A DNA stretch of 64,000 bases from Gammaproteobacteria bacterium (GTDB lineage Bacteria; Pseudomonadota; Gammaproteobacteria; Eutrophobiales; Eutrophobiaceae): the NCBI GenBank assembly GCA_947480335.1, contig CANKCB010000007.1, positions 1 to 64,000 on the forward strand, read 5' to 3'. Numbering within the stretch: the stretch's first letter is position 1; each line of letters opens with the position of its first letter. Below the pieces are notes generated by a model. That model was given only the letters and a program-made list of their open reading frames with translations. It was not told the DNA's origin and ran no database searches. Below are positions 14,379 to 33,430 of this stretch, piece by piece. The translations under genes and the position numbers were made by a program.

Positions 14379-15209
14379 TTAATGCCAGTGGTTCCACACT
14401 GGTTCGCATTCATGGGGCAAGGGGCGGCTATGGCCGAGTTTATTCCAGTGTTGTTCATGTCCGTGAAAGTCTGAACCGCACGATGCCAGTAGTTGTTTTT
14501 TCAGACAAATTGTTGTTAATTCGGCGGTTACATCGGCTGTCTGGTTGCCACTGATTACTTCGATACCCTGGCCTCCAGCTTCAATAAAGCTATCGATCAG
14601 TTTGTTCAGTCGGGTCCAGGTCAGCTGGTAACGTGCTGGATGGGCGAGTATGGGAATACCGCCTGAAGCACGTATGCACTCAATGATATCTGTCAGACTG
14701 GTCCAGGTGGGTTTGATGTAGGCTTTTTTGCCCATGCCCAGATAGAGTTTGTACGCTTCCTTGTCATCCTTGACCACTCCCGCCTCGATGAGATAACGGG
14801 CAAAATGGGGACGGCCAATATTATGGTCACTGTGAGCAAGTTGGCGAACTGCGGTGAGTATATTGTCGATACCCAAAAGTCGGGAGAGTTTATCAGCAAT
14901 TTCGCCAGCCCTGTCCAGACGATGCTGATGTTGTCTAGCGATACCAGCTTGCAATTTCGGACTTGTTAAATCGATATTCAGACCCAGTATATGGATTTCC
15001 AGTTTTGACCATTGTGTCGAAAACTCAATACCCGGGATGAGCCGAAAAGGCAGTAATTCCGGGATCGGAATGTCAGCATAGGCATCAATACTGTCATGAT
15101 CAGTGATCGCCAGCATATCCAGTTGTGACATTGCTGCATGGGCAATCAATTCTGCCGGTGACAGCTTGCCGTCGGAGACTGTCGTATGGGAATGTAGGTC
15201 GATGCGCAT
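14379..15209 (-). CDS. rnm: PHP-domain 5'-3' exoribonuclease / 3',5'-nucleotide phosphatase (RNase AM type)
   Basis: A 276-residue PHP metal-dependent phosphoesterase. Metal-binding motifs are complete: HSHTTVSDG near the N-terminus, AITDHDS, PGIEFST, ILAHPAR and CGSDFHG. The E. coli relative (YciV, RNase AM) matures the 5' ends of rRNAs and degrades short RNAs and pAp. Length is close to the family (about 290). ATG 15209 is used; a GTG six bases upstream is possible. It is about 50 bases from the rapA stop, so rapA-rnm could be one transcription unit. Confidence 0.88.
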   Translation of the reverse strand: MRIDLHSHTTVSDGKLSPAELIAHAAMSQLDMLAITDHDSIDAYADIPIPELLPFRLIPGIEFSTQWSKLEIHILGLNIDLTSPKLQAGIARQHQHRLDRAGEIADKLSRLLGIDNILTAVRQLAHSDHNIGRPHFARYLIEAGVVKDDKEAYKLYLGMGKKAYIKPTWTSLTDIIECIRASGGIPILAHPARYQLTWTRLNKLIDSFIEAGGQGIEVISGNQTADVTAELTTICLKKQLLASCGSDFHGHEQHWNKLGHSRPLPHECEPVWNHWH

Positions 15210-15258
15210 GGTCACGATTAAAACATGAAAATTGCGTGATTGTCAGAAAAAACCGTGA

Positions 15259-18114: not shown

Positions 18115-18122
18115 GTGAAACC

Positions 18123-18464
18123 GTGAACCCCGCAAAAGGTCGACATAGTAAAGAATCTGTATCAGAAATCCACAAAACAACGGAAGACTCTGGCTGGTTT
18201 GTCTATATGGTGCGTTGCAAAGACAGTAGCCTCTATACCGGTATCACCACGGATATCGAACGACGTATTATCGAACATAATACCAGCAACCGACTGGCAG
18301 CAGCCTACACGCGCTCACGCCGACCGGTAGTACTCGTATATAAGGAATCCTATTCTGATCGATCGTCTGCATTGAAACGCGAGTACGAAATCAAGCAATT
18401 AAGCAGTAAGGACAAGCTATTTCTTATAAATAACATAATGATAGTAAATGCTTCAGAGAAATAA
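18123..18464 (+). CDS. GIY-YIG nuclease superfamily protein, YhbQ/UPF0213-like
   Basis: A protein of up to 113 residues. The segment WFVYMVRCKDSSLYTGITTD followed by ERR-IEH matches the GIY-YIG fold of the UPF0213 group, with the VYM and YTG signature tripeptides and the ERR arginine visible. Related proteins such as E. coli YhbQ have nuclease activity; the cellular role is unclear. The only conventional start is GTG 18123, giving an N-terminal extension of about 24 residues compared with relatives, so a non-standard internal start is possible. Genes of this family are typically 80-100 codons. Confidence 0.8.
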   Translation: MNPAKGRHSKESVSEIHKTTEDSGWFVYMVRCKDSSLYTGITTDIERRIIEHNTSNRLAAAYTRSRRPVVLVYKESYSDRSSALKREYEIKQLSSKDKLFLINNIMIVNASEK

Positions 18465-18527
18465 GATGAGATTTATTCGTAGTTAATATACAACTCGCGA
18501 TTTACAAAACATGCACTAGAATGATCC

Positions 18528-18576
18528 CAGACGCTGGTGGCTTGCCGGAAGGGGGGAGGAAAGCTACCAGCGTCTG
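18528..18576. other. Large hairpin with G-rich loop, possible small RNA or barrier
   Basis: A 16-bp stem with a single G-T wobble: 18528-18543 (CAGACGCTGGTGGCTT) with 18561-18576 (AAGCTACCAGCGTCTG). The 17-base loop ends in GGAGGA (18555-18560), exactly complementary to TCCTCC at 18581-18586 just outside the stem, so an H-type pseudoknot could form. A TAGAAT hexamer sits about seven bases before the stem on the plus strand and a T run follows near 18605, as for a short independent transcript. It also lies between convergent genes, so a simple terminator-like barrier is an alternative. Confidence 0.4.
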
Positions 18577-18610
18577 ATTTGTCCTCCTACTATCCGCTTC
18601 ATCATTTTTT

Positions 18611-19369
18611 CTATTTGTTGGTTGTTGCCTCAAGACGTAATTCAAAACCGATCGTATTTGCCACACGTAACGCACCACCCAAAGCGGTGAATGGGCGTAA
18701 GCCTAGTTGTTGATGTTCAAGATTGAAACGGGCCTCTACCAGCATGCGACCATTGTTGATTGATAATGTTGCAGGCAGATTTAATCCGATTTGCTGGCCC
18801 TTGAAGTACAGGGTGATGGCCATTTGCCGAGGATCAGGATTGTTTCCGTCAATCACAGCTTCAATGCGTATCTCCGGAAATTGCTGCGCATCCAGTACTT
18901 CCGGTCGTAGCATATTGCTACGGGTGCCTTGCTTGTCCTTCTCTGTGGGTATCGATTCGTAACCGGCACCGGCGCGTTGCCGTTCAGCGGGATCATCCAC
19001 CACCAGCGAATCTACCGGAATCTTCAACTGTGCGGTTGATGGTAAGGGTGGAGTATTAAAATGGATTGTGCCACTGATATTATGACTGACGATGACATGG
19101 TTGTGCCCCATTCGTGCCAGCAGTCCTTCGCGCCCAACCAGTATGCGAAACACAGACTTTTCACTATCCACGGTATAGACAGGTATGCCGGATGTTGTGG
19201 ACCCGGTTGAATTTACTTCCTGTGCAATGGCCGTTACCACTGACAGGCACATCAGTGTAAACATTAAGTGCAATAGATGACGGATAAGCTGCGGTATAAG
19301 TGAATTTCTGCGATTGGGGGTAGTTGCTTGCACTGTGGCTGGTAGGCGGGAAACTGGAACAGGGTGCAT
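18611..19369 (-). CDS. YceI-family periplasmic lipid-binding-type protein
   Basis: A 252-residue exported protein. A long N-terminal region ends in a hydrophobic signal core (LLHLMFTLMCLSVVTAIA), with cleavage likely near A-Q. The rest fits the YceI lipocalin-like fold: YTVDSEKSVFRILVGREG, GHNHVI, and the late FNLEHQQLGLRPFTALGGALRV segment. Such proteins bind isoprenoid or fatty lipids in the periplasm. The start is uncertain: Met36 would give a shorter, more typical signal peptide. It is monocistronic between the hairpin and the divergent DUF4159 operon. Confidence 0.75.
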   Translation of the reverse strand: MHPVPVSRLPATVQATTPNRRNSLIPQLIRHLLHLMFTLMCLSVVTAIAQEVNSTGSTTSGIPVYTVDSEKSVFRILVGREGLLARMGHNHVIVSHNISGTIHFNTPPLPSTAQLKIPVDSLVVDDPAERQRAGAGYESIPTEKDKQGTRSNMLRPEVLDAQQFPEIRIEAVIDGNNPDPRQMAITLYFKGQQIGLNLPATLSINNGRMLVEARFNLEHQQLGLRPFTALGGALRVANTIGFELRLEATTNK

Positions 19370-19571
19370 AGTTTTTTCACATTTGATCTGGCCAGGTCCA
19401 GGCCATGTAATTATCCAGACTATATCGATTTACAGGTCAATACAAGTTGTTGAAACTGGGGTTGCATCGATACTGCGTATGACTTCCTACTGCGCTTCTA
19501 TCTGCTATAGTAGGCCAACCGGAAATTCAGGGTTTATACACGTGCTGAACAGACTGTATGCGCAAACTGAC

Positions 19572-20354
19572 ATGAAAGATAATCGCATTTTACCTTTATG
19601 GTTTGTATGCATTTTACTGTTCATGTTGATGCTGAATGTGAATATGAATGCTACAGCCCAGGCACAGACACCCGCACCGGATGCCGAATTCGCCTTTTCC
19701 CGCGCCTACTATACCTCCGGCAATCCGGTTACGGATGGTTATGGTCAAGGACGCACCCAGACCTGGCTAACGGACTGGCCGGAAGCTGAATCACATTTTA
19801 TCGAAGGCCTGAGCAGGTTGACACGGGTCAATACTTCTGCTGAAGGGCGCGTTGTCAGTTTGCTGGAAGATGATTTTTATGATTATCCCTGGATGTATGC
19901 AGTGGAAGTAGGCTACTGGAATCTCAGCGATCTGGAAGCAAAACGGCTGCGTGAATACCTGTTACGCGGTGGTTTCCTGATGGTGGATGATTTTCACGGT
20001 ACGCAGGAATGGGCAGGTTTCATGACGTCGATGCGTAAGATATTTCCCGATCGGCAATTTATCGAGATCGATCCTGATCATGAAGTGATGCATGTATTGT
20101 TTGATTTGAATAACAAGGTGCAAATTCACGGGCTGCAATTTTTCTACAGCGGACGTACCTACGAGAAGGACGGGATTGCCCCACATTGGCGCGGTATTAT
20201 GGATGATGCCGGCAGATTGATGGTAGCCATCAATTTCAATATGGATATCGGTGATGCCTGGGAACATGCGGATACGCCGTACTATCCTGAGCCGATGACG
20301 GCACTGGCCTATCGTTTCGGAACTAACTATGTGATCTATGCGATGACCCATTAA
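19572..20354 (+). CDS. DUF4159 protein, first gene of the MoxR operon
   Basis: A 260-residue exported protein. The signal core spans LWFVCILLFMLMLNV, then follows a DUF4159 domain: AFSRAYYTSG near the start, LREYLLRGGFLMVDDFHGT in the centre and the FYSGRTY and YRFGTNYVIYAMTH segments. DUF4159 resembles a class I glutamine-amidotransferase-like fold and is commonly encoded beside MoxR/DUF58/VWA genes. ATG 19572 is used, because the upstream frame (to 19314) overlaps the divergent yceI gene. It is spaced three bases from the next gene. Function unknown. Confidence 0.8.
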   Translation: MKDNRILPLWFVCILLFMLMLNVNMNATAQAQTPAPDAEFAFSRAYYTSGNPVTDGYGQGRTQTWLTDWPEAESHFIEGLSRLTRVNTSAEGRVVSLLEDDFYDYPWMYAVEVGYWNLSDLEAKRLREYLLRGGFLMVDDFHGTQEWAGFMTSMRKIFPDRQFIEIDPDHEVMHVLFDLNNKVQIHGLQFFYSGRTYEKDGIAPHWRGIMDDAGRLMVAINFNMDIGDAWEHADTPYYPEPMTALAYRFGTNYVIYAMTH

Positions 20355-20357
20355 GTC

Positions 20358-22586
20358 ATGACAGAATTACTGCTTAAATATCCGCAAATGTTGTTTGATC
20401 AGGGACAGCTGGTGCTGGCCAGCGAATGGCCGGCATGGGTTGCGCAGATTTTATTTGTGCTGATGGTGGTATTGATTTCAGCCATGTTGATCTGGAAACG
20501 CAACAGCTTGCGTTACTGGCAGCTCGCCGTTATTGGGTTGTTGCAGTCCGCAATGGTAGCGTTATTACTGCTGATACTCTGGCAGCCATCCATCATGACA
20601 GAACAATTGCGCCAGGGTGATAATGTGGTTGCACTGATGCTGGACACCTCGGCAAGCATGAACTACAGCGAGAGCGGTAGTACGCGTATGCAGCAGGCTC
20701 TGACGGTAATCAATGGCGAGGCTCTCGGAAAAACCGGTCAGCAGTATGCCTTGCAGCGATATGTGTTTGCGAACGAGGCACGGTCAGTAGACAGTTTTGA
20801 GCCTTTGCCAGCACCGACACAACAGACACGACTGGGTGAAGCTGTCAGGCAGGTGCTTTCCATGTCGCGAACTAGGCCATTGGGAGCAGTGGTTTTGTTA
20901 AGTGATGGTGCAGAAAATTCCGGTAGTCTGACCCGAGAGCAACTGGCTGACATCGCCCGTTATGGTGTGCCGGTTCATACAATCGGGATTGGTAACGAAC
21001 GTATACCCGAAGATCTGGAATTACAGGATATCACGCTGCCTGGGCAAGCAATGCCGGGTACCTTGCTGACCGCACGTGTTGCCATCCGGCATGATCAACC
21101 CGGAGTCGCCAGACTCAAAATCTTCGATAGTGGCAAGCTGATTGCTGCCAGTGAAATACAATTGCAACCGGCCACCGATGTAACCAGCGCCTGGGTCGAC
21201 GTACCCGTGACCCAAACTGGTTACCGTGATATGCGTTTTACCCTGGATCCTATTGCAGATGAACAGGTGACGGAAAACAACAGTCTCTCCAGAGTAGTAG
21301 AAGTTCGCGAACAAAAATATCGGGTGCTCTATATAGAGGGTGAGCCACGTTGGGAATACAAGTTTATGCGTCGCGCGCTGGAAAAGGATCCGAGTGTGGA
21401 GCTGGTCAGTCTGTTACGGGTCAGCCAGAATAAATTTTATCGTCAGGGTATTAACAACGAAAATGAACTTGCCGAGGGTTTTCCAACTGACAGAAAAACC
21501 CTGTTTGCTTTTAATGCATTGATTATAGGTAGTATTGAGGCTCCGGTATTTTCAGCTGAGCAACAACAGTTGATATATGATTTTGTCAATGATCGTGGTG
21601 GCAGCCTGTTACTGCTCGCCGGGCCAAACGGACTGGGTAAGGGCGCCTGGGGCAATTCCGGCATTGCTGACTTGTTGCCTGCAACGTTACCTGAAGCCGA
21701 ATCCGGTTTTGTACGGTCAAGGGCCCGTGCGGTTTTGACACAGGCTGGCGCACAGTCACCGATGCTGAAACTGAATCAGGATCCGGTTGAGAATAAACGT
21801 TTGTGGCAGGAATTACCCGAGATTGCAGATTATCAGGCGATAGGTAGTCTGAAACCTGCCGCAACGATCCTGTTGAATGCACAGATCGAACAGAGTGAGC
21901 GGCCTTTACTGGTCACCCAACCCTACGGCAAGGGACAGACCTATATTATGGCCACCGGTGGTACCTGGCGCTGGCAGATGAGTTTGCCTTCAGAGGATCA
22001 GAGACATGAAACCTTCTGGCGGCAGTTGTTGAGGGAAATGGTGATCAATACTCCGGATCGTTTCAGTCTGGTGACTGAAGTCACCGCCGATACCGTCAGG
22101 TTGAATGCCGAGTTGTTGGATGAGAGTTTTAAACCAGAACGCAATCTGAAACTGAGTGCGATTGTATCTGCCCCTGACGGTGGATCCACGACAATCGAAA
22201 TGCATCCGGCCGATGATTTGCCCGGAATGATGACCGCCACATTCGAGGCAGGACAATCAGGTCTGTATGCCATTGAGGCGATTTCCCGACGTAATGATGA
22301 GCCGGTTGAATCGGTAAGGGTAGCCGTACATCATGATAGCGGCAAGGCGGAATATTTTTCATTGCGCAAGAATCAGGCCTTGTTGCAACAACTGGCGGAT
22401 GCGACCGGAGGACGCAACTGGTCGGCAGACCAGCTGGACGAACTGGTTCAAACCATCAGTTACTCACCAGCCGGTATTACTGAAAAGAAAATGTATCCAC
22501 TCTGGGATGCACCACTGCTATTTATAGTACTGATGCTGTTAAAGGCACTCGAATGGTCTTTGCGACGATACTGGAAAACCATATGA
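20358..22586 (+). CDS. Membrane protein with VWA and amidotransferase-like domains
   Basis: A 742-residue protein. Two membrane spans (about 27-46 and 54-76) are followed by a von Willebrand A domain with an intact MIDAS Asp-x-Ser-x-Ser at 96-100 (DTSAS). An extracytoplasmic beta-rich region comes next, then a class I amidotransferase-like segment around 390-430 (ALIIGSIEAPVFS, then GGSLLLLAGPNG) without an obvious catalytic Cys. A final span near the C-terminus (LLFIVLMLLKALEW) anchors it. It overlaps the next gene by ATGA. VWA proteins in MoxR operons are thought to bind metal and protein partners at the membrane. Confidence 0.85.
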   Translation: MTELLLKYPQMLFDQGQLVLASEWPAWVAQILFVLMVVLISAMLIWKRNSLRYWQLAVIGLLQSAMVALLLLILWQPSIMTEQLRQGDNVVALMLDTSASMNYSESGSTRMQQALTVINGEALGKTGQQYALQRYVFANEARSVDSFEPLPAPTQQTRLGEAVRQVLSMSRTRPLGAVVLLSDGAENSGSLTREQLADIARYGVPVHTIGIGNERIPEDLELQDITLPGQAMPGTLLTARVAIRHDQPGVARLKIFDSGKLIAASEIQLQPATDVTSAWVDVPVTQTGYRDMRFTLDPIADEQVTENNSLSRVVEVREQKYRVLYIEGEPRWEYKFMRRALEKDPSVELVSLLRVSQNKFYRQGINNENELAEGFPTDRKTLFAFNALIIGSIEAPVFSAEQQQLIYDFVNDRGGSLLLLAGPNGLGKGAWGNSGIADLLPATLPEAESGFVRSRARAVLTQAGAQSPMLKLNQDPVENKRLWQELPEIADYQAIGSLKPAATILLNAQIEQSERPLLVTQPYGKGQTYIMATGGTWRWQMSLPSEDQRHETFWRQLLREMVINTPDRFSLVTEVTADTVRLNAELLDESFKPERNLKLSAIVSAPDGGSTTIEMHPADDLPGMMTATFEAGQSGLYAIEAISRRNDEPVESVRVAVHHDSGKAEYFSLRKNQALLQQLADATGGRNWSADQLDELVQTISYSPAGITEKKMYPLWDAPLLFIVLMLLKALEWSLRRYWKTI

Positions 22587-23488
22587 ACAGAAATTTCCTC
22601 TTTTGTCTGTTGTTCGTGTTGCCTCTACCAGCAATGGCATTGCTGAATGTCACAGTCATACAGGGACTCGATGGTGAGGCTGAATATGGCAAGCAGTTTT
22701 CCGCACAGGTGAAGACGGTGTTTTCGGCGGTAGAGTCTGTAACAGATAAAAATAATATTGTGGTTTTTAGTGGCAATGATGTCAGCCGGGACAAGCTGCT
22801 CGCACATTTTGATCAACTGGGTAAAACACTGAAACCGGTGGATCAACTACTGGTAATTATGGTTGGTCATGGCAGTTATGACGGTTTTGAATACAAATTC
22901 AATATTCCGGGGCCTGACCTGACGGGTGCTGATCTGGTAAACATGCTGAAGGTACAGACAACCAAACTTCAGGTGATTATCAATACCAGCAGCTCCAGCG
23001 GAGCATTGCTGGATCTGTTAAAAGGCGATGGCAGGACGGTGATTACCGCCACCCGCAACGGTGAGGAACGTCTTGCTACCCGCTTCGGGACATACTTTAC
23101 CAATGCACTGGAAGACAGTGCGGCAGACATCAACAAGAATAATGCGGTGTCCCTGCAGGAAGCCTTTACCTACGCTGAAAGAATGAGCAAGGATTACTTT
23201 GAAAACCAGGGTCAACTCGCTACCGAACATCCGGTGATGTCCGGAGACAAGGCAACGCAATTTGTGCTGGCACGAACCGTAACAGGTGCAACTGATACGT
23301 CTGATCCTGAGCTGGCACAATTGCTCATAAAACGTGAACAACTGGATATCAGCATCGAACAGTTACAATTACGTAAAGATGAATTACCGGCTGATGACTA
23401 CCTGAACCAGTTGCAACAATTGATGATAGATATGTCGCTGGTGCAAGATAGTATCGATCAGAAAGGACAACCCGCCGGTGAAAAATAG
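22583..23488 (+). CDS. Exported caspase-like (C13/C14 clan) protein, catalytic Cys replaced
   Basis: A 301-residue protein with a signal peptide (core 4-18, AMA cleavage). The caspase-haemoglobinase fold is suggested by the VIMVGHGSYDG segment with His96, and by VIINTSSSSGALL at 131-143, which occupies the place of the usual D-x-C-x-SG catalytic motif. Ser residues 136-139 stand where Cys is expected, so classical cysteine protease activity should be lost. Residues 240-295 form a probable coiled coil. The start ATG overlaps the previous stop (ATGA), and its own end overlaps the next gene by 11 bases. A pseudoprotease or binding role within the MoxR complex is inferred. Confidence 0.65.
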   Translation: MNRNFLFCLLFVLPLPAMALLNVTVIQGLDGEAEYGKQFSAQVKTVFSAVESVTDKNNIVVFSGNDVSRDKLLAHFDQLGKTLKPVDQLLVIMVGHGSYDGFEYKFNIPGPDLTGADLVNMLKVQTTKLQVIINTSSSSGALLDLLKGDGRTVITATRNGEERLATRFGTYFTNALEDSAADINKNNAVSLQEAFTYAERMSKDYFENQGQLATEHPVMSGDKATQFVLARTVTGATDTSDPELAQLLIKREQLDISIEQLQLRKDELPADDYLNQLQQLMIDMSLVQDSIDQKGQPAGEK

Positions 23489-25766
23489 TACAGGGTTACT
23501 GATACTGCTAGTTTTGATGCGGCTGGTTTCAATGGTCGAGGCAAGACCGATACATTATGGGGCTATTAACGATCCGGGTTTGCTGGCCTGCGATCAGCTC
23601 GACTGGAATGGCAAAAAACAGCAGGCGGTAGATTGCTATCGTAGTTTGCAACAACAGAAACGGGAGCCAGCCATATTGGCGGAAGTCAGCTGGGCTCTGG
23701 GCGACATCAAGGAGGCCAATACATTGTTTCAGACGGCGGTGAAACTAAACCCCGATGATGCGGCGATCAGGGTGCGTTGGGGTGAATTGTTCATTCAAAC
23801 CTATCAGTATCAGGATGCACTGGATCTGTTCAAAGAGGCGCTGGAGCGGGATCCGGAAAATGCCTATGCCCGTATTGGCTCAGCACGGGCATTGATTGAA
23901 CGCTTTGAGTCTGACGCGGTCAAGTCACTACAGCCTGTACTGGAAAATAACAATGCTCCGGCTGGCGCACGTCTGCAAGCTAGCTTATTACTGGCCCGAT
24001 TGGCGATTGAAGCGACGAGCAGTGATGAAGCCGTCAGTCAGTTACAACAGGCCGAAAGTATTGCCACCCAGGCCGGGTTACCAAAACTCGAAATCTACGC
24101 CCTGTATGCCACTCTGGATTTGTTAAAGGGGAAAAAGGACAGTGAATGGATCAAAAAGGCGCTGGAGATCAATCCGGTCTGGGGCGATCTGTATGCAATT
24201 CCGGGTTATTTTTTCTGGATAGGTCGACGCTATCGTGAGGCAATCGATTTATATTCGGAAGCTGTGCGTATCCAGCCCGACCATTGGCTAGCGCATATGG
24301 AGCTGGGGATTAACCTGTTACGAAATAATGAAGTGACTCGTGCGCGTGAACAGATGCACATTGCTTACCATGGAGATCCGTATAATCCAAAAACGGTCAA
24401 TACGCTGCGATTACTGGATACTTTTGTCGACTTTGATGTGCTGACGAGACCGGAAAAACCGGCAGCGAATCTGTTTCCGAAGATGATATTTCGTCTGCAC
24501 AAGGACGAGAGTCCGGTATTGGTAGACTATGCTGAACAGCTGGCTGGTAAGGGAATTGATGAGTACAGTCAGCGTTATCAGTTCACTCCGAAAGAACCGG
24601 TGGTAATCGAGATTTATCCGAACCACGAGGACTTTGTGGTGCGTACTATTGGCATGCCGGGTGTCGGCATACTGGGCGCCACGTTCGGATATCTGTTTGC
24701 AATGGATTCACCTACAGATCATGCAGACAATGAATACCACTGGGGAACGACTCTCTGGCATGAACTGGCACATGTATTTACTCTGGAGATGACAGATCAT
24801 CTGATCCCACGCTGGTTCAGTGAAGGAATTTCCGTATATGAAGAATGGCGGTCCGGCCCGATAAAGGGGGTGCGAATACCGGTCAACGTTCTGGAGGCGA
24901 TGGTAGAACGCAAGTTTTTACCGATTGCCGAACTGGATGGGGGATTTATCCGCCCAAGCTATGATGAGCAGGTTATCGTCTCTTATATGCAGGCCGGGCT
25001 GGTTTGTGATTTTTTTGATCAAAAATACGGGTTCGGCAAGATTGTGGACATGCTGGCGCAATATAAAAAAGGACTGGATACATCGACAGTAATCGGCGAT
25101 GTGTTTGGATTGTCTGTTACTGATTTTGATAAACAGTTCGCAACTTTTGTGGAACAGCAATACGGTGAACTGCTGGCTCATCTGGACCAGTGGAAAAAGC
25201 TACAGTCAGAAAGTATCAAGGCTTTCGCGGCAGAGGATTGGGACAGTGTTATAGAGAAGTCAGAGCAGGCAATCCGTATATTTCCTGAATATGTCGAATC
25301 GGATAGCCCTTATGTACTGCTGGCTCAGGCCTATGCGGCAAACAAGAATGTAGACAAGGAAATGGATACCTTGCTGGCATTCTGGAAGCGTGGAGGGTAT
25401 GTACCGCCAGCGAGCAAGAAGCTGGCCAATCTATTGTATCAGGCCAACCGCAAGAATGAGGCGCTGGAAGTCATGTACAGTATCAATTACGTTGCGCCGT
25501 TCGATGTGGAATTGCACACAACCCTGGGTGACTGGATGCTCGAAGCGAACAGGGCAGAACAGGCGCTAAGAGAATACCAGGTGGTGCTGGCAATGAAGCC
25601 GCACGATCTGGCCGATGCACATTATCGCGTTGCCCGTGCCAGCCATTTACTGGCACGAGATGATGAGGCACGCCGCCATTTACTGGCGGCACTGGAAATT
25701 GCGCCACATTATCGGCCTGCGCAAAAGCTGTTACTGGAGACGACACAAACCAAGCAACAACAATAA
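23478..25766 (+). CDS. Exported TPR protein with gluzincin (peptidase MA-like) domain
   Basis: A 762-residue protein starting at GTG 23478. Signal peptide (core about 6-20), then tandem TPR repeats over roughly 40-320 (for example AILAEVSWALGDIKEANTLF and ALDLFKEALERDPENAYARI). A zinc metallopeptidase domain follows with H428-E429-L-A-H432 and a downstream glutamate in WFSEG (Glu449), the HExxH plus E pattern of gluzincins. C-terminal TPRs occupy about 570-755. Catalytic residues look intact, unlike its caspase-like neighbour. It overlaps the previous gene by 11 bases and leads directly into MoxR. It would act in the periplasm; substrate unknown. Confidence 0.85.
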   Translation: MKNSTGLLILLVLMRLVSMVEARPIHYGAINDPGLLACDQLDWNGKKQQAVDCYRSLQQQKREPAILAEVSWALGDIKEANTLFQTAVKLNPDDAAIRVRWGELFIQTYQYQDALDLFKEALERDPENAYARIGSARALIERFESDAVKSLQPVLENNNAPAGARLQASLLLARLAIEATSSDEAVSQLQQAESIATQAGLPKLEIYALYATLDLLKGKKDSEWIKKALEINPVWGDLYAIPGYFFWIGRRYREAIDLYSEAVRIQPDHWLAHMELGINLLRNNEVTRAREQMHIAYHGDPYNPKTVNTLRLLDTFVDFDVLTRPEKPAANLFPKMIFRLHKDESPVLVDYAEQLAGKGIDEYSQRYQFTPKEPVVIEIYPNHEDFVVRTIGMPGVGILGATFGYLFAMDSPTDHADNEYHWGTTLWHELAHVFTLEMTDHLIPRWFSEGISVYEEWRSGPIKGVRIPVNVLEAMVERKFLPIAELDGGFIRPSYDEQVIVSYMQAGLVCDFFDQKYGFGKIVDMLAQYKKGLDTSTVIGDVFGLSVTDFDKQFATFVEQQYGELLAHLDQWKKLQSESIKAFAAEDWDSVIEKSEQAIRIFPEYVESDSPYVLLAQAYAANKNVDKEMDTLLAFWKRGGYVPPASKKLANLLYQANRKNEALEVMYSINYVAPFDVELHTTLGDWMLEANRAEQALREYQVVLAMKPHDLADAHYRVARASHLLARDDEARRHLLAALEIAPHYRPAQKLLLETTQTKQQQ

Positions 25767-25786: not shown

Positions 25787-26812
25787 ATGTCAGATATACA
25801 AGCAAATACAATGGATACCAGCGAAGGCACTGTTCGTCCACTGGTGGATAACTTCAAAGCCTCCATGGAACGTATACGTACTGAAATCAGAAAGGTCATT
25901 GTCGGTCAGGATGAGGTGGTTGAACATCTGCTGATAACCTTGCTGGTAGGTAGTCATTGTTTAATCACCGGAATGCCCGGTACAGCCAAAACCTTACTGG
26001 TGAGAACACTGGCTAATTGTCTGGGGCTGTCATACAAACGTATCCAGTTTACACCCGATCTGATGCCGACCGATGTGACTGGTACCGACATAATAGAGGA
26101 GGACTCAACGACAGGTCACAAAACCTGGACGTTTGTGCCGGGCCCGATTTTTGCCAATGTGTTGCTCGCAGACGAAATCAACCGTACCCCACCTAAAACC
26201 CAGTCAGCCTTGCTGGAAGCGATGCAGGAACGCTCGGTTACTGTACGCGGTAAAAACCATACACTGCCTCCACCGTTTCTGGTGCTGGCGACACAAAATC
26301 CCATTGAGCTGGAAGGAACATACCCCTTGCCGGAAGCCCAGCTGGATCGCTTCCTGTTTAATGTGATACTTGATTATCTGAATGCGGACGATGAATTGGC
26401 CGTGGTCAACCGTTACACCACTCGTGTAGATATGCCGGAAGTGAATGTCTGCACCAGTGCCGAAGAGATCCTGAAATACCAGTGGCTGGTACGCCAGGTT
26501 CCGGTAGCTGAATCGGTCAATCGTTATGCCGTCAATCTGGTCCGCGCTACACGTCCCAGAGAACCGGCTGCACCGGATATCGTCAAGCGTTATGTCAATT
26601 TTGGTGCCAGTGTACGTGCGACCATGTTCCTGACACTGGCAGCGAAGGCGCATGCGCTGTTGCAGGGACGTTATCATGTAACGGAGGCGGATATCGCTGC
26701 GGTTGCCAGACCAGTCTTACGTCATCGCGTGCTGACCAATTATCATGCCGAATCTGACAAGATTACCGTAGACGATGTATTAAAAGGTGTGCTTGATTCC
26801 GTCAGAGCCTGA
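25787..26812 (+). CDS. MoxR-family AAA+ ATPase
   Basis: A 341-residue cytoplasmic AAA+ chaperone. Walker A GMPGTAKT at 62-69, Walker B LLADEINRTPPKTQSALLEAM around 126-146, sensor 1 ATQNPIE, and arginine-finger region EAQLDRF. The C-terminal lid domain is typical of MoxR. These ATPases insert cofactors or remodel VWA-domain partners; the following DUF58 and VWA genes are their standard companions. GGGAGG about 13 bases before ATG 25787 supports the start. It is the fifth gene of the eight-gene run and separated from its neighbours by 20 and 11 bases. Confidence 0.95.
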   Translation: MSDIQANTMDTSEGTVRPLVDNFKASMERIRTEIRKVIVGQDEVVEHLLITLLVGSHCLITGMPGTAKTLLVRTLANCLGLSYKRIQFTPDLMPTDVTGTDIIEEDSTTGHKTWTFVPGPIFANVLLADEINRTPPKTQSALLEAMQERSVTVRGKNHTLPPPFLVLATQNPIELEGTYPLPEAQLDRFLFNVILDYLNADDELAVVNRYTTRVDMPEVNVCTSAEEILKYQWLVRQVPVAESVNRYAVNLVRATRPREPAAPDIVKRYVNFGASVRATMFLTLAAKAHALLQGRYHVTEADIAAVARPVLRHRVLTNYHAESDKITVDDVLKGVLDSVRA

Positions 26813-26823
26813 AACAGAAGACC

Positions 26824-27729
26824 ATGAGCACACCAGAATCACAACCGACAAGATTACTCAGGCCAGAAGTCCTGTCCGGACTGTCAACACTGGATCTGGT
26901 TGCGCGTGTGGTAGTCGAAGGGTTTCTAATTGGCATGCACCGATCCCCGTCATTCGGATTCAGCCAGGAATTTGCAGAATACAGGCAGTATGTCGAGGGA
27001 GATGATCTGCGTTACATAGACTGGAATGTCTATGCGCGTTCAGAACGTACCTATATCAAACGTTTTCTGGGAGAAACCAACAGTCATCTGGTGCTGTTGC
27101 TGGATGCCAGCGCCTCTATGGGGTATGGCACCGCTGCTGTGACTAAATTCCAGTATGGTCAATATCTGGCAGCCTGTCTGGCCTATCTGGCCTCAAGACA
27201 ACATGATGCGATTGGTTGCATTATTTTTGATGAGGAAGTGCGTGATTATCGTCCTCCCACAACACGCAGTGGTAATCTGTTCAGTGTCTTGCATACGATT
27301 GATAACGCGAGGCCAGCACACGGGACCAATCTGGAAAAACCGTTCAGACAGTTTGCTGGCATGACCAGTCATCGGGGTATGGTCGTGGTCATATCTGATT
27401 TTTATTGTGACGCGGAACAAATGATTGAAAATGTGCGTCCGTTGGCGTTCAAGGGGCAGGACATTATTCTGTTCCAGTTGTTGGATCCGGGCGAGATGAA
27501 TTTGCCGTTCGCCGAGGCCACCTTGCTAGAAGATGCAGAAACCGGCAATGCAGTTGAGGTGTCTGGCCAGTTTATACGTGATGGCTACAGCGAAAAGGTG
27601 CAGCAACACATTGAGTCGATTCGTAAGGCAGTCGCAGGTATAGGCGCGGACCATGTACTGGTCAGTACCGATGAACCTCTGGATCAAGCCCTGCGCAATT
27701 ACCTGATGTTCAGGCAAAGGCGGAAATAA
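26824..27729 (+). CDS. DUF58 protein, MoxR partner
   Basis: A 301-residue cytoplasmic protein with the DUF58 signature GDDLRYIDWNVYARS around 59-73, followed by a VWA-like fold in which LLLDASASMGYG near 93-104 supplies a MIDAS-type D-x-S-x-S. There is no membrane segment. DUF58 proteins are coupled to MoxR ATPases in nearly all bacterial operons of this type and probably act as its substrate adaptor. It starts 11 bases after the MoxR stop and ends two bases before the BatA-like gene. Confidence 0.93.
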   Translation: MSTPESQPTRLLRPEVLSGLSTLDLVARVVVEGFLIGMHRSPSFGFSQEFAEYRQYVEGDDLRYIDWNVYARSERTYIKRFLGETNSHLVLLLDASASMGYGTAAVTKFQYGQYLAACLAYLASRQHDAIGCIIFDEEVRDYRPPTTRSGNLFSVLHTIDNARPAHGTNLEKPFRQFAGMTSHRGMVVVISDFYCDAEQMIENVRPLAFKGQDIILFQLLDPGEMNLPFAEATLLEDAETGNAVEVSGQFIRDGYSEKVQQHIESIRKAVAGIGADHVLVSTDEPLDQALRNYLMFRQRRK

Positions 27730-27731
27730 AT

Positions 27732-29765
27732 ATGGCCTTGCTCGCGCCCCTGTTTCTGTCCGGGTTACTGGTTATAGCCTTGCCGATATATCTGCATCGC
27801 TTGCAAACACAAAGTACTGAACGTAAACGCTTCAGCTCGACCATGCTGCTTGAGTCCAGCCGGCAACAGGTTCATCTGAAGAAAAAATTGCGCTATCTGT
27901 TGTTGCTGGTATTGCGTGTGGCCTTGTTGGGCCTGCTGGCACTCAGCTTTGCCAAACCGGTGCTTGAAAGGAATTCAGTGATTGAATTGAAAGCCGGTTC
28001 AGTATTGCATCTGCTGGTGATCGATACGTCGTTTTCGATGCAATATGGAAATTTGGCTGATCACTCCCGCACAGAAGCCAGAAAAATCATTGCAGAATTG
28101 CCCGAGGCCGATCTGGCACAGGTACTCACGGCTAGCAATACCCTGGAAGTACTCGGAGAGGCAGACAAGGATCATAATGGCCTGACTGGTCGTATCAATT
28201 CAATTCACTTTGGCAACGGTCATCTGGATTACGGGGTGATGATGACCAGCATCAACAGTTTGATCAAGGATGCCCGGCAGAATATTCATATACATTTAAT
28301 CAGTGATTTTCAGACGACAGGTCTTCCGGCACGGTTTGCTGATCTGGTGCCGACTGCAAGAGGTCAGTACCACACTGAACTGACACCGACTGCAAGAGGT
28401 CAGTACCACACTGAACTGACACTGCATCCGCAGACAGAACAGCAGCAGGACAATCTTTATGTGGATACCATTATTCCGGTGGAGAATGGTCTGGATGTAG
28501 GAGTGCGCAGTAATCTTGCTACCGCCACTGAAATCAGGGTGGCGTTCAAAAATAATGGCGTGATTGTGCAAGAACAGTCCAGAACCATAGAGTCGGGTGG
28601 CCAGTCCCGCTTTATGTTTACAGTTTCAAAATATGAAGATGGTGATAACAGGATTGAAGCGGTGATTGGCAACACTGACGAATTAATCGCGGATAATACC
28701 CGTTACGCGGTTGTGGATAATACTCCCCCAAAACCGGTGTTGTTGTTAACCAGTGATACACAAGGATTACCGGTAAAATATCTGCAAACTGCAGTTGAAG
28801 CCGGTAAATCGGGTTATCGTGCAGAGCCTGTACTGATCACTGAATTCGACCCGCGTGTGTTGCAACGTTATTCATGGATCATGATTGACGATATCGGCAT
28901 CATTGATTCCGGGTTGGCAACCAGTCTGCTTGAATATTTACAGGGAGGGGGTGCGATTTTGGCGGCTTCGGGCGAAAGAGCGCTGGCACAATCACAGCTG
29001 CCCTTGCTGAATTACCCGATTCGGCAGGCGATATTATCTGCCAATGATGCCAAGCCTGGGGCTGTTACCGGGATTGACGCCAGTCATCCTGTGCTAGCCG
29101 GCACCAGCGGTTGGCGCGATATCAACGTATCGCGTTATCTGGATCTGGTTACCGACCCGCAATCACATAACATGGTCAGTCTGGATAACGGTGCAGCTTT
29201 AATACTGGAGCGCAAGTTTGGTCAGGGGCGTTTATTGTTGTTGACCAGCAGTCTGGATAATCGCTGGAATGATCTGCCGGTGCATCCGGTATTTGTTAAT
29301 TTTATTGCTGAGGCAGCCAAATACCTGTCGGGTCGTGATCAATTAAAACGCAGCCAGGTGGCCGGTGACTACCTGCAATTGATACGATCGGGCACTGCCG
29401 CCGGACAGGTGATTGCGCCCGATGGCAAGACCATACTGTCACTGGCAGATACACATCGTAGCCAGCAAATCCCGATGGACTTGCCCGGGTTTTATCAAAT
29501 CTATACTTCTGATTCTGAACATTTAATCGCGGTAAATCCGGATTTGCGAGAATCCGATTTGACAGTGATGCCGGTGTCCGATCTTGATCGTTGGCAACAG
29601 GCTTTACAGGGCCCGGCTGTTATCCCATCTACTCAGGTGGATAATAAGATTGAGGACGATCCTGTTCAGTTATGGCCTATACTGTTAATACTGCTGGGAA
29701 TAGTCGTAATGGTTGAATCACTGCTCGGTAATACCTATCTGGGGTCCGGGCGAGGATCGGTGTAA
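27732..29765 (+). CDS. BatA-like membrane protein with VWA domain
   Basis: A 677-residue protein. The N-terminal aerotolerance BatA segment supplies a membrane span (LLAPLFLSGLLVIALPIYLH) and a second span near 55-75, then a VWA domain with MIDAS DTSFS around 97-101. The middle and C-terminal region resembles an amidotransferase-like domain (IMIDDIGIIDSGL, LQGGGAILAASGERA), and a last span (LWPILLILLGIVVMVESLL) closes it. A perfect 36-base tandem duplication (28350-28421) duplicates the 12-residue unit PTARGQYHTELT. Its stop codon overlaps the next start by one base (TAATG). Confidence 0.9.
   Translation: MALLAPLFLSGLLVIALPIYLHRLQTQSTERKRFSSTMLLESSRQQVHLKKKLRYLLLLVLRVALLGLLALSFAKPVLERNSVIELKAGSVLHLLVIDTSFSMQYGNLADHSRTEARKIIAELPEADLAQVLTASNTLEVLGEADKDHNGLTGRINSIHFGNGHLDYGVMMTSINSLIKDARQNIHIHLISDFQTTGLPARFADLVPTARGQYHTELTPTARGQYHTELTLHPQTEQQQDNLYVDTIIPVENGLDVGVRSNLATATEIRVAFKNNGVIVQEQSRTIESGGQSRFMFTVSKYEDGDNRIEAVIGNTDELIADNTRYAVVDNTPPKPVLLLTSDTQGLPVKYLQTAVEAGKSGYRAEPVLITEFDPRVLQRYSWIMIDDIGIIDSGLATSLLEYLQGGGAILAASGERALAQSQLPLLNYPIRQAILSANDAKPGAVTGIDASHPVLAGTSGWRDINVSRYLDLVTDPQSHNMVSLDNGAALILERKFGQGRLLLLTSSLDNRWNDLPVHPVFVNFIAEAAKYLSGRDQLKRSQVAGDYLQLIRSGTAAGQVIAPDGKTILSLADTHRSQQIPMDLPGFYQIYTSDSEHLIAVNPDLRESDLTVMPVSDLDRWQQALQGPAVIPSTQVDNKIEDDPVQLWPILLILLGIVVMVESLLGNTYLGSGRGSV
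28350..28421 (+). repeat. Perfect 36-bp tandem duplication inside the BatA/VWA gene
   Basis: Two identical, directly adjacent 36-base copies (28350-28385 and 28386-28421) encode PTARGQYHTELT twice and keep the frame. Absence of any divergence means the duplication is recent, or else an assembly artefact. The insertion sits after the VWA domain. Confidence 0.95.
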
Positions 29766-32700
29766 TGGCGGCACTATCACAACAACTTGATCTATACCTG
29801 AATTCGTTCCGCGAACGTCTACGCCGGGTTTCAATTCTCAGGGGTTCAGCACTGTTGGCGTTGGCTCTGTTGCTGATTAGTCTGCTGGGTGCCTGGTTGT
29901 CAATCCGATCCGGTTTTGCCAGTGATGTCGTCTTCCTTGCCCGACTGGTATTACTGATCAGCCTGGCAGGTATAGTGTACCGCTATATTTTCCTGCCGCT
30001 GCAACAACTCGAACGCGGTTATGCCCAACAAATTGAACGTCATACTCCAGCATTCGCTGGCAGGGTGGAAACCTATGCGGGTATGCAGGACCCGGCCAAT
30101 CCATTCCGGGAACTCCTTGCAGAAGACGCGTTGATTCTGGCCAGAAACTATCCGCCGGAACGTCAGATTAACAACAGGCAATTACTGCTACCGGCAATAG
30201 GTACGGGAGTTACCGTTCTGGTATTGCTCTGGTTGCTGGTGGCTGGACCGGGGCTATTTAACTATGCCATCAGGCATCTCTGGGCTGGTTGGATGATGTC
30301 AGGTCTTTTGCCACCGCAGGTTATTAATGTGATCCCGGGTAACGAGGCCGTACGCCGTGGCGGCAATATCAAAGTATTGGCTACCATGCAGGGTTTTGAA
30401 CCGACTGGTGCCTTGATGTACGTGCGTACAGGAGAGACTGACTGGCAACAGGTGGAAATGATCAAAACCGAACGTGGTTATGAGTTTACATTCTTCTCGC
30501 TACGAGAGCCGGTTAACTACTATGTTACTGCAGCGGGAATACGCAGTCCCGAATTTTCCCTCCAGGTTGTAGATTTACCTGAATTGGAAAGTCTGAAACT
30601 GACCTATCATTATCCTGAATGGACTCACAAGGCACCGGACATCGTTGATCCCGGTGGCGATATCCGCACAATCATTGGTACCGGCATTGAACTGGAAGTG
30701 CATACGACCACACCGCTGCCAGCCGGAGTGCTGGTTGTTAACGGTGATTCGAAAAACTTGCAGGTTAAACAACAGATAGCTACCGGACAGTTCGAGATCA
30801 GCGAAGATGGCCAGTATTATGTCGCTGCCCGTGTCGGCAGTGAACTGGTAAGGCTGACAGACGATTATTTCATCAAGGTGATGGAAGATGGTAAACCTGA
30901 GATCAAACTTTCCCGTCCGGGGCGTGACTGGAATGCGAGTAGCATAGAAGAAGTGACAGTACATGTGCAGGCCAGTGATGATTTTTCACTCGAATCAATG
31001 CAGCTACGTTATGCCGTCAATGGTGGGGAGTGGCAATCTGTACCGCTTCCAGTGACTGCGCAAAAAGTCGAGCTGGACCATGTACTCTTGCTTGAGGCCA
31101 TGCAGAGTGTCAGTACGGATAACAAGACTACAAGCTTGCAGCCCGGAGATCTGATTACCTATTATGCCGAGGCGAAAGACAAGGACAATACCAGCAGCAC
31201 GGATATGTTTTTTATCCAGGTACAACCGTTTGATCGCCGCTATACCCAGTCACAACAGGCGGGTGGTGGTGGCGGTCAACAGGGAAATGAACAGCAGGAA
31301 ATATCCCAGAGGCAGAAGGAAATCATTGTCTCAACCTGGAACCTGATGCGCGAAAAGGCTACAAACGGTGGAGTAGTAAAGGACACCACGCGTGATAATG
31401 CCTTACTGTTATCCGGCTTGCAGAAAACATTGGCTGAGCAGGCACAAACGCTGGCTGAACGTACCCGGGCGCGGGAATTAAACGCGGATGAACAAGTTGC
31501 CCGATTTGTGGAACATATGGACAAGGCCGCACAGGCCATGGCACCTGCCACCGAGAATCTGGCCGGATTGGATCTGGAAGCAGCGATACGACCGGAACAG
31601 GAAGCCTTGCAACATCTACTCAGGGCTGAAGATGTCTTTACTGATATGCAGGTTTCATTTCAGCAGAATCAGGGAGGAGGTGGCGGGGGTGGCCGTGCAG
31701 GTCAGGATCTGGCCGAGATGTTTGAGCTGGAAATGGATCTGAAAAAAAACCAGTATGAAACAGGTAGTCCGGCGACCCCTGAGGCAGAGGCACAACAAAC
31801 AGATGATTCAATGGACAAGCTGGAAGAACTGGCACGTCGCCAGGAACAGCTGGCTAATAATCTGCGTAATCAGCAAAACCTGACTGATTCCCAGCGCTGG
31901 CAACAGGAGATGCTCAAACGTGAAGCAGAACGTTTGCGCGAACAGCTGGATCGTCAACAACAGGCATCGAACCAGCAGGGACAGAAACAGGGTGCACAAG
32001 GTCAGCAGGGACAACCTGACCAGCAATCTACGTCAAACAATACCTCTGATCAGTCGGAAGGAAGTCAGGGTTCGGAAGGTACGGCCCAATCAGAATCCAG
32101 TCGCCGCTTACAAAGTGCGATACGGGCCATGAATGACATGACTGAAGCAATGCGCGATCCTGCCAAGCGTGAACAGTTGGAGCGTGCCGCAGAAGAAGCG
32201 GGTCGACAACTGGAAGGTGCCCGTGACCAGATTTCCCAGGATCAGCAACAATCGATGCAGCAATCCTTTGCCGAGATGTCAAATCAGGCTGACCGTATGT
32301 ATGACGACCAGATAAGCATGGAACAACAATTACAGGAAGCGGTGAAACGTGCATTGGCTACCAAGGAGCAGACCGGAGAAATTACCAGCGGACTGACACC
32401 GGCAGAACAGGTAAGACTGTCTGAAGCCAAGAAAGCAATGGCAGAACAGTTACAACAATTACAACGCGATATGCAGAGCACGTCCGGCAAGTTCGGAGAG
32501 CAGGTACCAGAAGCGCAGGATCAGCTTGATAAGGCGAGAGATGTTATCAGCCAATCACAACTTGAAGAAAGATTGAATGTGGCGGCTGAATATATCGCTT
32601 ATGGTGCAGCCCCCTATATTGCTGGCAGTGAAAGCGCAGTCACCAATGCGCTGGAAGAAATTGGCAAACGTTTACGAGATGCAGAAACCAGAACGGCAGG

Positions 32701-33430
32701 TGCGGATATTGCAAAGGATGACAATATTGAACGAGCACTGGCACAAACACGGAGTCTTAGACAACAACTGGAACAACTGGCCAATCCATCAAACCAGAAT
32801 GGGCAGGCTGGACAGGAAAGTGGTCAGCAAACAGCGCAACAGCCGTCGTCTGGTCAGGAGGGGCAGTCAGCACAATCTGATATGTCTACTGCGCAAACCG
32901 GATCACAACCAGCGACAGAGCAAGGTCAGTCAGTTCAGTCGGGCCAATCTGACACAGACGAATCAGGAAAAGCGTCTTTGGCGGGAGGACTCCAGACCGG
33001 GACTACACAAGCAACTGGGACTACTGGGCCTTCTGGTCAATGGGGTGGCTACGCCAACCGTGGTCCCGTAAACCCTGCAGACTGGGACAGGTACAGTCGT
33101 AGCCTGATGGACACAGCACGGGCGATACGGGGCACCTTGCCTGAATTGAGCGAACGCAATTTGAATCAGGCCGATCTGGACGAAATCAGGGATCTTACCC
33201 AGCAACTGGAACAACAGATGGCCCTGTCAGACCCGAATCGCAATGACAGGATCTTGCAGCAACAACTGTCCTCTGCCTTGTCACTGCTTGAGCAGCTGGA
33301 ATTGAAACTGGATGCTGGCGCAAACAGCGGTGAGACGGAAAAGGTTCGAACTACCGCAACCGAACCTGTTCCGGATCAATACAAGGATGCAGTGGCTGAA
33401 TACTACCGCAGACTAAGCCAGGGCAAGTAA
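29765..33430 (+). CDS. Giant DUF4175-like membrane protein with Gln-rich coiled-coil half
   Basis: A 1221-residue protein. Two N-terminal spans (about 26-46 and 52-75) and a third at 143-165 precede an extracytoplasmic beta-sandwich region (about 190-500) with immunoglobulin-like repeats. From residue 500 onward it is dominated by Gln, Glu, Ala and Arg, predicted coiled coil with disordered linkers (QGNEQQ, QQGQKQGAQGQQGQ, QSTSNNTSDQSEGSQGSEGT). DUF4175-type proteins terminate MoxR operons of this layout. Start overlaps the BatA-like stop; the operon terminator lies 14 bases after its stop. The long helical tail could span the periplasm. Confidence 0.8.
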   Translation: MAALSQQLDLYLNSFRERLRRVSILRGSALLALALLLISLLGAWLSIRSGFASDVVFLARLVLLISLAGIVYRYIFLPLQQLERGYAQQIERHTPAFAGRVETYAGMQDPANPFRELLAEDALILARNYPPERQINNRQLLLPAIGTGVTVLVLLWLLVAGPGLFNYAIRHLWAGWMMSGLLPPQVINVIPGNEAVRRGGNIKVLATMQGFEPTGALMYVRTGETDWQQVEMIKTERGYEFTFFSLREPVNYYVTAAGIRSPEFSLQVVDLPELESLKLTYHYPEWTHKAPDIVDPGGDIRTIIGTGIELEVHTTTPLPAGVLVVNGDSKNLQVKQQIATGQFEISEDGQYYVAARVGSELVRLTDDYFIKVMEDGKPEIKLSRPGRDWNASSIEEVTVHVQASDDFSLESMQLRYAVNGGEWQSVPLPVTAQKVELDHVLLLEAMQSVSTDNKTTSLQPGDLITYYAEAKDKDNTSSTDMFFIQVQPFDRRYTQSQQAGGGGGQQGNEQQEISQRQKEIIVSTWNLMREKATNGGVVKDTTRDNALLLSGLQKTLAEQAQTLAERTRARELNADEQVARFVEHMDKAAQAMAPATENLAGLDLEAAIRPEQEALQHLLRAEDVFTDMQVSFQQNQGGGGGGGRAGQDLAEMFELEMDLKKNQYETGSPATPEAEAQQTDDSMDKLEELARRQEQLANNLRNQQNLTDSQRWQQEMLKREAERLREQLDRQQQASNQQGQKQGAQGQQGQPDQQSTSNNTSDQSEGSQGSEGTAQSESSRRLQSAIRAMNDMTEAMRDPAKREQLERAAEEAGRQLEGARDQISQDQQQSMQQSFAEMSNQADRMYDDQISMEQQLQEAVKRALATKEQTGEITSGLTPAEQVRLSEAKKAMAEQLQQLQRDMQSTSGKFGEQVPEAQDQLDKARDVISQSQLEERLNVAAEYIAYGAAPYIAGSESAVTNALEEIGKRLRDAETRTAGADIAKDDNIERALAQTRSLRQQLEQLANPSNQNGQAGQESGQQTAQQPSSGQEGQSAQSDMSTAQTGSQPATEQGQSVQSGQSDTDESGKASLAGGLQTGTTQATGTTGPSGQWGGYANRGPVNPADWDRYSRSLMDTARAIRGTLPELSERNLNQADLDEIRDLTQQLEQQMALSDPNRNDRILQQQLSSALSLLEQLELKLDAGANSGETEKVRTTATEPVPDQYKDAVAEYYRRLSQGK

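Follow-up and report, generated by a model that had tools for sequence, protein, structure and literature searches.

A protein family of predicted legumain fold with mostly serine at the catalytic cysteine position, usually encoded between a VWA protein and a zinc peptidase in a MoxR/Bat-like operon

The P0001 gene resides in a 64,000-nucleotide stretch of contig CANKCB010000007.1 from a Gammaproteobacteria bacterium. This whole stretch is called the window below. The gene is part of an operon whose order is DUF4159, VWA, P0001, TPR-zinc peptidase, MoxR, DUF58, BatA-like and DUF4175 (Table 1). The original prediction, made from the window alone, described P0001 as a caspase-fold protein that carries serine where the catalytic cysteine should be. 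A recheck of the sequence upheld the coordinates, strand and translation of this open reading frame, and a wrong frame, start or strand is ruled out. Both signatures named at that time are present as described, including His96 of a GHG motif and the run N134-T135-S136-S137-S138-S139-G140 at the cysteine site. The sole cysteine of the 301-amino-acid protein is C8, which is inside the apparent signal peptide, as the prediction had also noted.

Relatives in named genomes were collected with a pattern built on the FN-GPD motif and independent of the serine site. By this approach, 286 of 291 pattern matches proved to be relatives (tblastn E ≤ 1e-3), and the best 80 of the 286 were used. An AlphaFold2 model of P0001, built from a 78-row alignment of the protein with 77 unchanged translations from these 80 loci (three were too short), has a pLDDT of 92.6 and a pTM of 0.84. 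The best solved Foldseek match of the model is legumain (4n6o; E 1.5e-9, probability 1.00). A VIA-align comparison with legumain 4nol, which spans residues 20-232 of P0001, gives a Z score of 21.2 and a root mean square deviation of 2.3 over 190 residues with 17% identity, followed by Arabidopsis metacaspase-4 (Z 19.5), a GPI transamidase chain (18.4) and caspase-7 (17.1). The predicted fold is caspase/legumain-like (clan CD, caspase-haemoglobinase), and the fold assignment thus withstood the structure prediction that had been proposed as its test. P0001 alone has no match to the Pfam C13 or C14 models, to NCBIfam models or to PDB sequences. The Peptidase C13 model (PF01650) matches 19 of the 78 family rows at E ≤ 0.01 (best 2.2e-7) without matching P0001 itself, and therefore the link to the C13 family is visible only through its relatives. 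One weak hit among the PDB sequences, to ACE2 (E 0.005), was attributed to chance.

Several alignments place Ser137 at the position of the catalytic cysteine. The family was compared with 24 bacterial C13 and 16 C14 sequences that were selected by a rule needing HG and C-x-S/A-G, and thus the uniform presence of cysteine in these sets (24/24 and 16/16) is a product of the rule and not a finding. With hhalign, the family aligns to the C13 domains with a probability of 99.2 and to the C14 domains with a probability of 98.5. Each time H96 pairs with the catalytic histidine and S137 with the cysteine, ungapped at the site. A MAFFT alignment of 212 sequences likewise places S137 in the cysteine column of both sets, where none of the 172 family rows has cysteine, and H96 in the histidine column of both sets, which were chosen to hold HG. 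A HMMER alignment to GSU0716 (3bij) is gapped near the site, where hhalign and MAFFT are ungapped. The fold, the profile alignments and the shared column all point the same way, which rules out a chance resemblance of motifs. A hidden alternative cysteine was rejected as well: the alignment of homologues suggested earlier (86 rows) reveals no other catalytic cysteine, and the richest cysteine column of the mature domain reaches only 12 of 86 rows. Separately, Cys138 lies beside a Ser, Thr or Asn at the site in 11 of 172 rows (L192, L194, L241, L180, L188 and others).

Position 137 is serine in 151 of 164 distinct members and cysteine in none, and H96 is found in all 164. Judged from these sequences, serine is the common state of the P0001 family. 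This answers the earlier question of cysteine or serine as far as the family itself is concerned. The tree does not root the family, since the C13 branch, which is long (2.12) and weakly supported, falls inside it, and so the order of events relative to C13 is not proved. As for conservation of the serine run, S137, S139 and G140 of NTSSSSG are well conserved and the rest of the run is not. Seven positions never vary in the 164 members, among them H96, D112, D182, E193 and E215, and S137 ranks 25th of 272 positions in conservation.

The 75 loci from Acidobacteriota, drawn from 247 genomes and less biased toward the query, have Ser at this position in 62 cases and otherwise T (3), E (3), P (2), N (2), A (2) or G (1). 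Each of the five named invariant residues is present in all 75 loci, including the 13 that lack serine. An initial impression of family-wide invariance (86/86 in the first rows) was therefore overstated, as those rows came mostly from the 80 closest of 286 relatives. Serine was lost through at least eight changes on the family tree, and the rows without it lie among Ser-bearing rows. Outside the 164 members are remote Verrucomicrobiota proteins (L201-L206, open frames of 684-763 amino acids), in which the HG motif, D112 and the EF-hand-like loop are partly or wholly lost. These six keep a remote version of the domain and form a branch that has decayed further.

This loop, formed by residues 182-193, fits the 12-residue EF-hand pattern and may constitute a Ca2+ site, judging from the sequence and the model. 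Asp at loop position 1 and Glu at position 12 are present in 163 of 163 rows. Position 3 is D or N in 86/86 rows, position 5 is N, D or S in 86/86, and position 9 is S, T, N or D in 84/86. The EF-hand consensus is matched by 83 of 86 rows, and the loop has the same length in all 86. The model includes a short strand at residues 188-190 (loop positions 7-9) and a helix from residue 191 (position 10), which is the EF-hand layout. A similar pattern occurs in none of the 24 bacterial C13 sequences and in three of the 16 C14 sequences.

The P0001 family is found in Gammaproteobacteria, Acidobacteriota and Verrucomicrobiota. Full-length members are present in eight of 53 genomes of the order to which the window belongs, and five more genomes have weak matches alone. 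Wider samples yielded full-length members in seven of 369 genomes of the class (E ≤ 1e-40) and in one of 398 genomes of the phylum, which is the window's own. Members were also found in 69 of 247 Acidobacteriota genomes (the 75 loci mentioned above) and in five of 194 Verrucomicrobiota genomes. These genome searches also gave weak matches (E 1e-3 to 1e-15), and the inspected ones are mostly Cys-bearing C13/C14 proteins. The family was not recognised from titles or abstracts among the matches listed in the open-access literature searched.

The genes flanking P0001 are tightly packed. The TGA of the VWA gene overlaps the P0001 ATG (ATGA at 22583-22586), and the downstream gene for a peptidase with a HELAH motif begins with a GTG at 23478, giving an 11-nucleotide overlap. 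Thus, P0001 is indeed encoded directly between a VWA gene and an intact zinc peptidase, as first described. The MoxR, DUF58 and BatA-like genes are adjacent in the window, as identified by Pfam, and in the loci of relatives. The third components that mark ternary MoxR-vWA conflict systems (PMC7159879), of the VMAP, iSTAND, FtsH or beta-propeller kind, are not named by Pfam in the eight operon proteins, although no search dedicated to them was made.

Table 1. Positions in the window of the P0001 gene, its notable residues and the other genes of the operon.
Feature	Position	Strand	Remarks
DUF4159 protein, first operon gene, start codon uncertain	19314..20354	+	Pfam
VWA/GATase1-like membrane protein, adjoins P0001 upstream	20358..22586	+	Pfam matches slightly under curated cut-offs
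P0001 gene	22583..23488	+	301-residue apparently secreted legumain/caspase-fold protein, Ser137 at catalytic Cys position
Apparent signal peptide, residues 1-19, with C8	22583..22639	+	By eye
G95-H96-G97	22865..22873	+	His96 in 164/164 distinct members
D112 of FN-x-x-GPD motif	22916..22918	+	164/164 distinct members
S137 codon AGC, catalytic Cys position	22991..22993	+	Ser 151/164, Cys 0/164
EF-hand-like 12-residue loop, residues 182-193	23126..23161	+	D1 and E12 in 163/163 rows with a letter there
E215-H216	23225..23230	+	E215 163/163; H216 variable (46/75 Acidobacteriota loci)
C-terminal helical hairpin, residues 242-295	23306..23467	+	Outside legumain-like domain (17-235); model
TPR protein carrying a zinc-peptidase domain (Peptidase_MA_2), with its HELAH motif at residue 428	23478..25766	+	
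MoxR-type AAA ATPase	25787..26812	+	Pfam
DUF58 protein	26824..27729	+	Pfam
BatA N-terminal/VWA membrane protein	27732..29765	+	Pfam
DUF4175-like protein	29765..33430	+	20.7 bits, under Pfam cut-off of 27.3

Much of this operon accompanies the family. In the best 80 of 286 loci, homologues were found of the VWA protein (79), TPR-peptidase (77), MoxR (66), DUF58 (61), BatA (56), DUF4175 (51) and DUF4159 (43), and many of these loci end at contig ends. A profile survey of 150 loci (those 80 and 70 further) located a VWA match in 144, directly before the P0001 homologue in 141. A zinc peptidase with an HExxH motif is present in 112 of the 150, directly after the P0001 homologue in 104. All 112 copies in which the motif aligns carry HExxH, and three further TPR copies are gapped there, with no copy having another motif. 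Within the window's order, full-length copies of the P0001 family and the zinc peptidase domain occur in the same eight of 53 genomes, five of which belong to one genus. The operon is also present in a cultured bacterium, Edaphobacter modestus (L132).

We judge it somewhat better than an even chance that P0001 is a calcium-binding pseudo-legumain, which serves as a non-cutting partner of the VWA protein and the TPR-zinc peptidase. The fold, the residue equivalence, the conservation, the operon and the co-occurrence are established by computation, and the proposal builds on them. The protein appears to retain a C13/C14-type fold and active-site shell with serine in place of the cysteine nucleophile, and most likely does not cut peptides on its own. 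In the periplasm, where it would be expected to reside, it might partner the VWA membrane protein and the TPR-zinc peptidase of a MoxR/Bat-like envelope operon, in both a structural and a regulatory capacity. Ca2+ binding by the EF-hand-like loop could stabilise or gate the domain, while the old substrate cleft near His96, Ser137, Asp112 and Glu215, which are its probable lining residues, might hold a ligand or protein segment. The C-terminal helical hairpin could dock on a partner, and the outcome might be presentation of a substrate to the zinc peptidase or regulation of that enzyme.

The pattern of conservation bears on whether Ser137 is a nucleophile. If serine and histidine formed a catalytic pair, the loss of one should entail the loss of the other, and yet His96 is kept in 13 of 13 loci that have lost the serine. 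This fits a conserved pseudoenzyme better than an obligatory serine peptidase. Moreover, Ser137 is less conserved than Glu215 and the loop ends (D182 and E193), which also speaks for a pseudo-legumain. Clan CD peptidases normally become inactive when their cysteine is replaced by serine. Natural cases of the replacement are TbMCA1 and TbMCA4 of Trypanosoma brucei, which are "expected to be enzymatically inactive" according to a passage of PMC3058108, and TbMCA4 is called a pseudopeptidase in the title of another paper. Taken together, the usual effect of this substitution and the expectation for the two metacaspases lend further support to an inactive protein. Thus, both options of the original prediction, an inactive scaffold or a serine-based enzyme, are kept, and the 13 serine losses in 164 members with no loss of His96 tip the balance toward the former. 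The adaptor role it suggested is one that we likewise infer.

Several observations weigh against a calcium-binding, non-cutting partner of the zinc peptidase. No EF-hand Pfam model is among the matches listed (25 of 57 families). Ser137 is invariant, as a nucleophile would be, throughout the part of the tree that holds the window's protein (92 rows, Acidobacteriota included; branch support 76), and His96 is as well. Serine is also kept across codon classes (AGY in 81 and TCN in five of 86 rows), which separate Cys-to-Ser changes could likewise produce. The invariance of Ser137 in that part of the tree keeps in contention a serine-type clan CD hydrolase, in which Ser137 would be the nucleophile with His96, Glu215 or Asp112 might be the acid, and the P, E, N, A, G and T lineages would be later pseudoenzymes. 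Consistent with this model, His96 is present in all rows, serine is retained in 151 of 164 members with a mostly intact SxSG shell, and the serine losses are nested. In addition, serine is missing in six of 35 rows with an altered G140 or H216 versus seven of 131 intact rows (phylogenetically uncorrected Fisher p 0.03). However, the persistence of His96 in all 13 non-Ser loci implies a role for this residue without serine, and the expected inactivity of TbMCA1 and TbMCA4 (PMC3058108, in the passage quoted above) is a further argument against such an enzyme. For these reasons we consider a serine hydrolase unlikely. Nor is the dyad histidine of clan CD known to take a proton from a serine, which also counts against it. 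More elaborate still, and quite doubtful in our view, is a Ca2+-gated legumain-fold serine hydrolase that uses Ser137-His96 with Glu215 or Asp112 and works in tandem with the zinc peptidase in the envelope of bacteria from the three groups in which the family was met. To our knowledge, such a serine-type clan CD hydrolase would be the first of its type.

The tie to the zinc peptidase is also imperfect. At 23 of the 150 surveyed loci, the downstream sequence, 3 kb or more, contains no HExxH peptidase, and 15 more loci end too near to the gene. Serine occupies position 137 in 109 of 112 loci with the zinc peptidase, in 17 of the 23 without it, and in 11 of the 15 that end too near. Thus, residues other than serine are commoner in loci without the peptidase (6/23 versus 3/112, raw Fisher p 0.0008), which suggests a job for the serine in the complete system and is another point against an inert site. 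This association comprises only three independent pairs, and a phylogenetic test was not significant. The 23 loci, and the steadier presence of the VWA neighbour (144/150), might instead indicate a ligand- or peptide-binding sensor that works with the VWA protein alone and has no tie to the zinc peptidase. The peptidase in 112 of 150 loci, directly after the P0001 homologue in 104, and its perfect co-occurrence in the window's order make this rather improbable. A decaying remnant, maintained mainly through its operon position while the site residues drift under weak constraint, might be seen in the remote L201-L206 proteins, which lack the HG motif, the EF-hand-like loop or both, and in VWA plus pseudo-legumain pairs outside the operon that are more changed at positions 137, 140 and 216. 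Seven positions are invariant across the 164 distinct members, which span three phyla, and all eight zinc-peptidase genomes found among the 53 of the order have a P0001-family gene. We therefore regard decay as very improbable.

Nine such pairs (L303, L308, L310, L317, L320, L322, L326, L335 and L339) consist of a VWA gene and a pseudo-legumain gene with no zinc peptidase or MoxR-operon genes in about 9 kb downstream. G140 is replaced by Phe in seven of the nine and H216 by Arg in all nine. Many divergent loci in Acidobacteriota (L284, L288, L309, L311 and others) have two DUF4159 genes, one before the VWA gene and one before MoxR.

Among known proteins, the closest in character are legumain and other members of Peptidase C13, including bacterial ones, which share with the P0001 family the fold, the histidine position, SxSG at the nucleophile site and a weak profile match of some members. 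The P0001 family differs by having no cysteine at the site (0/164, with Ser in 151), by its EF-hand-like loop, a pattern that none of the 24 bacterial C13 sequences shows, by the C-terminal helical hairpin and by its operon setting. According to PMC6426788, 90% of the published pseudo-orthocaspases are in Alphaproteobacteria and Cyanobacteria, and its abstract names Tyr and Ser at the dyad. These and bacterial C14 proteins share the clan fold, serine at the cysteine position and, in three of 16 C14 sequences, an EF-hand-like pattern. When compared by the dyad types given in that abstract, the P0001 family differs from the Tyr-Ser proteins in that it keeps its histidine in 164 of 164 members, occurs in other taxa and is encoded in a zinc-peptidase operon. 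TbMCA1 and TbMCA4 are similar in having a natural Cys-to-Ser change in a clan CD fold and, as in some P0001-family members, a cysteine beside the serine (PMC3058108). They differ in being eukaryotic, in being two members of an otherwise Cys-bearing family, and in context.

The operon resembles MoxR-DUF58-BatA (Bat/aerotolerance) operons in its MoxR, DUF58, BatA-like, DUF4159 and DUF4175-like components, and differs by the addition of the pseudo-legumain and the TPR-zinc peptidase, mostly in one order. An operon of the MoxR/DUF58/DUF4159 type linked to the envelope is also known from Rhizobium and carries no weight as evidence here. Caspase-like domains occur in some architectures of MoxR-vWA conflict systems (PMC7159879). 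According to the abstract of PMC3557215, experiments had yet to demonstrate what Bat proteins specifically do. Inactivated caspase-fold proteins are already known. The present case is a whole family, met in three phyla, that is without the cysteine. Its members have retained the histidine, a calcium-type loop and much of the pocket shell, and an intact zinc peptidase usually accompanies them. If P0001 is a pseudoenzyme, the role of a fixed pair of dead and live peptidases could be tested in a MoxR/Bat-like envelope operon that is still poorly understood. An active P0001 would give the caspase clan a new catalytic type.

Other observations were made on related loci and on the window. In the taxonomic family to which the window belongs, loci L009-L013 and L020-L024 encode a different, Cys-bearing C13 protein, and by eye some of these have MORN-like repeats or membrane segments. 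In one genome search, PF01650 matched 12 of 21 genomes, and none of the four genomes in it that carry the P0001 family (G000, G002, G019 and G021) was matched. The nearest named relatives, L054 and L055, have 66% and 63% identity, respectively, and carry the whole operon. Their records are titled MAG: Klebsiella pneumoniae although the genomes are assigned to the window's genus, which suggests that the records are mislabelled. Upstream of the operon, at 14379-19369 of the window, inspection by eye indicates genes for a PHP-type phosphoesterase, an SNF2-type helicase, a GIY-YIG protein and a YceI-like protein.

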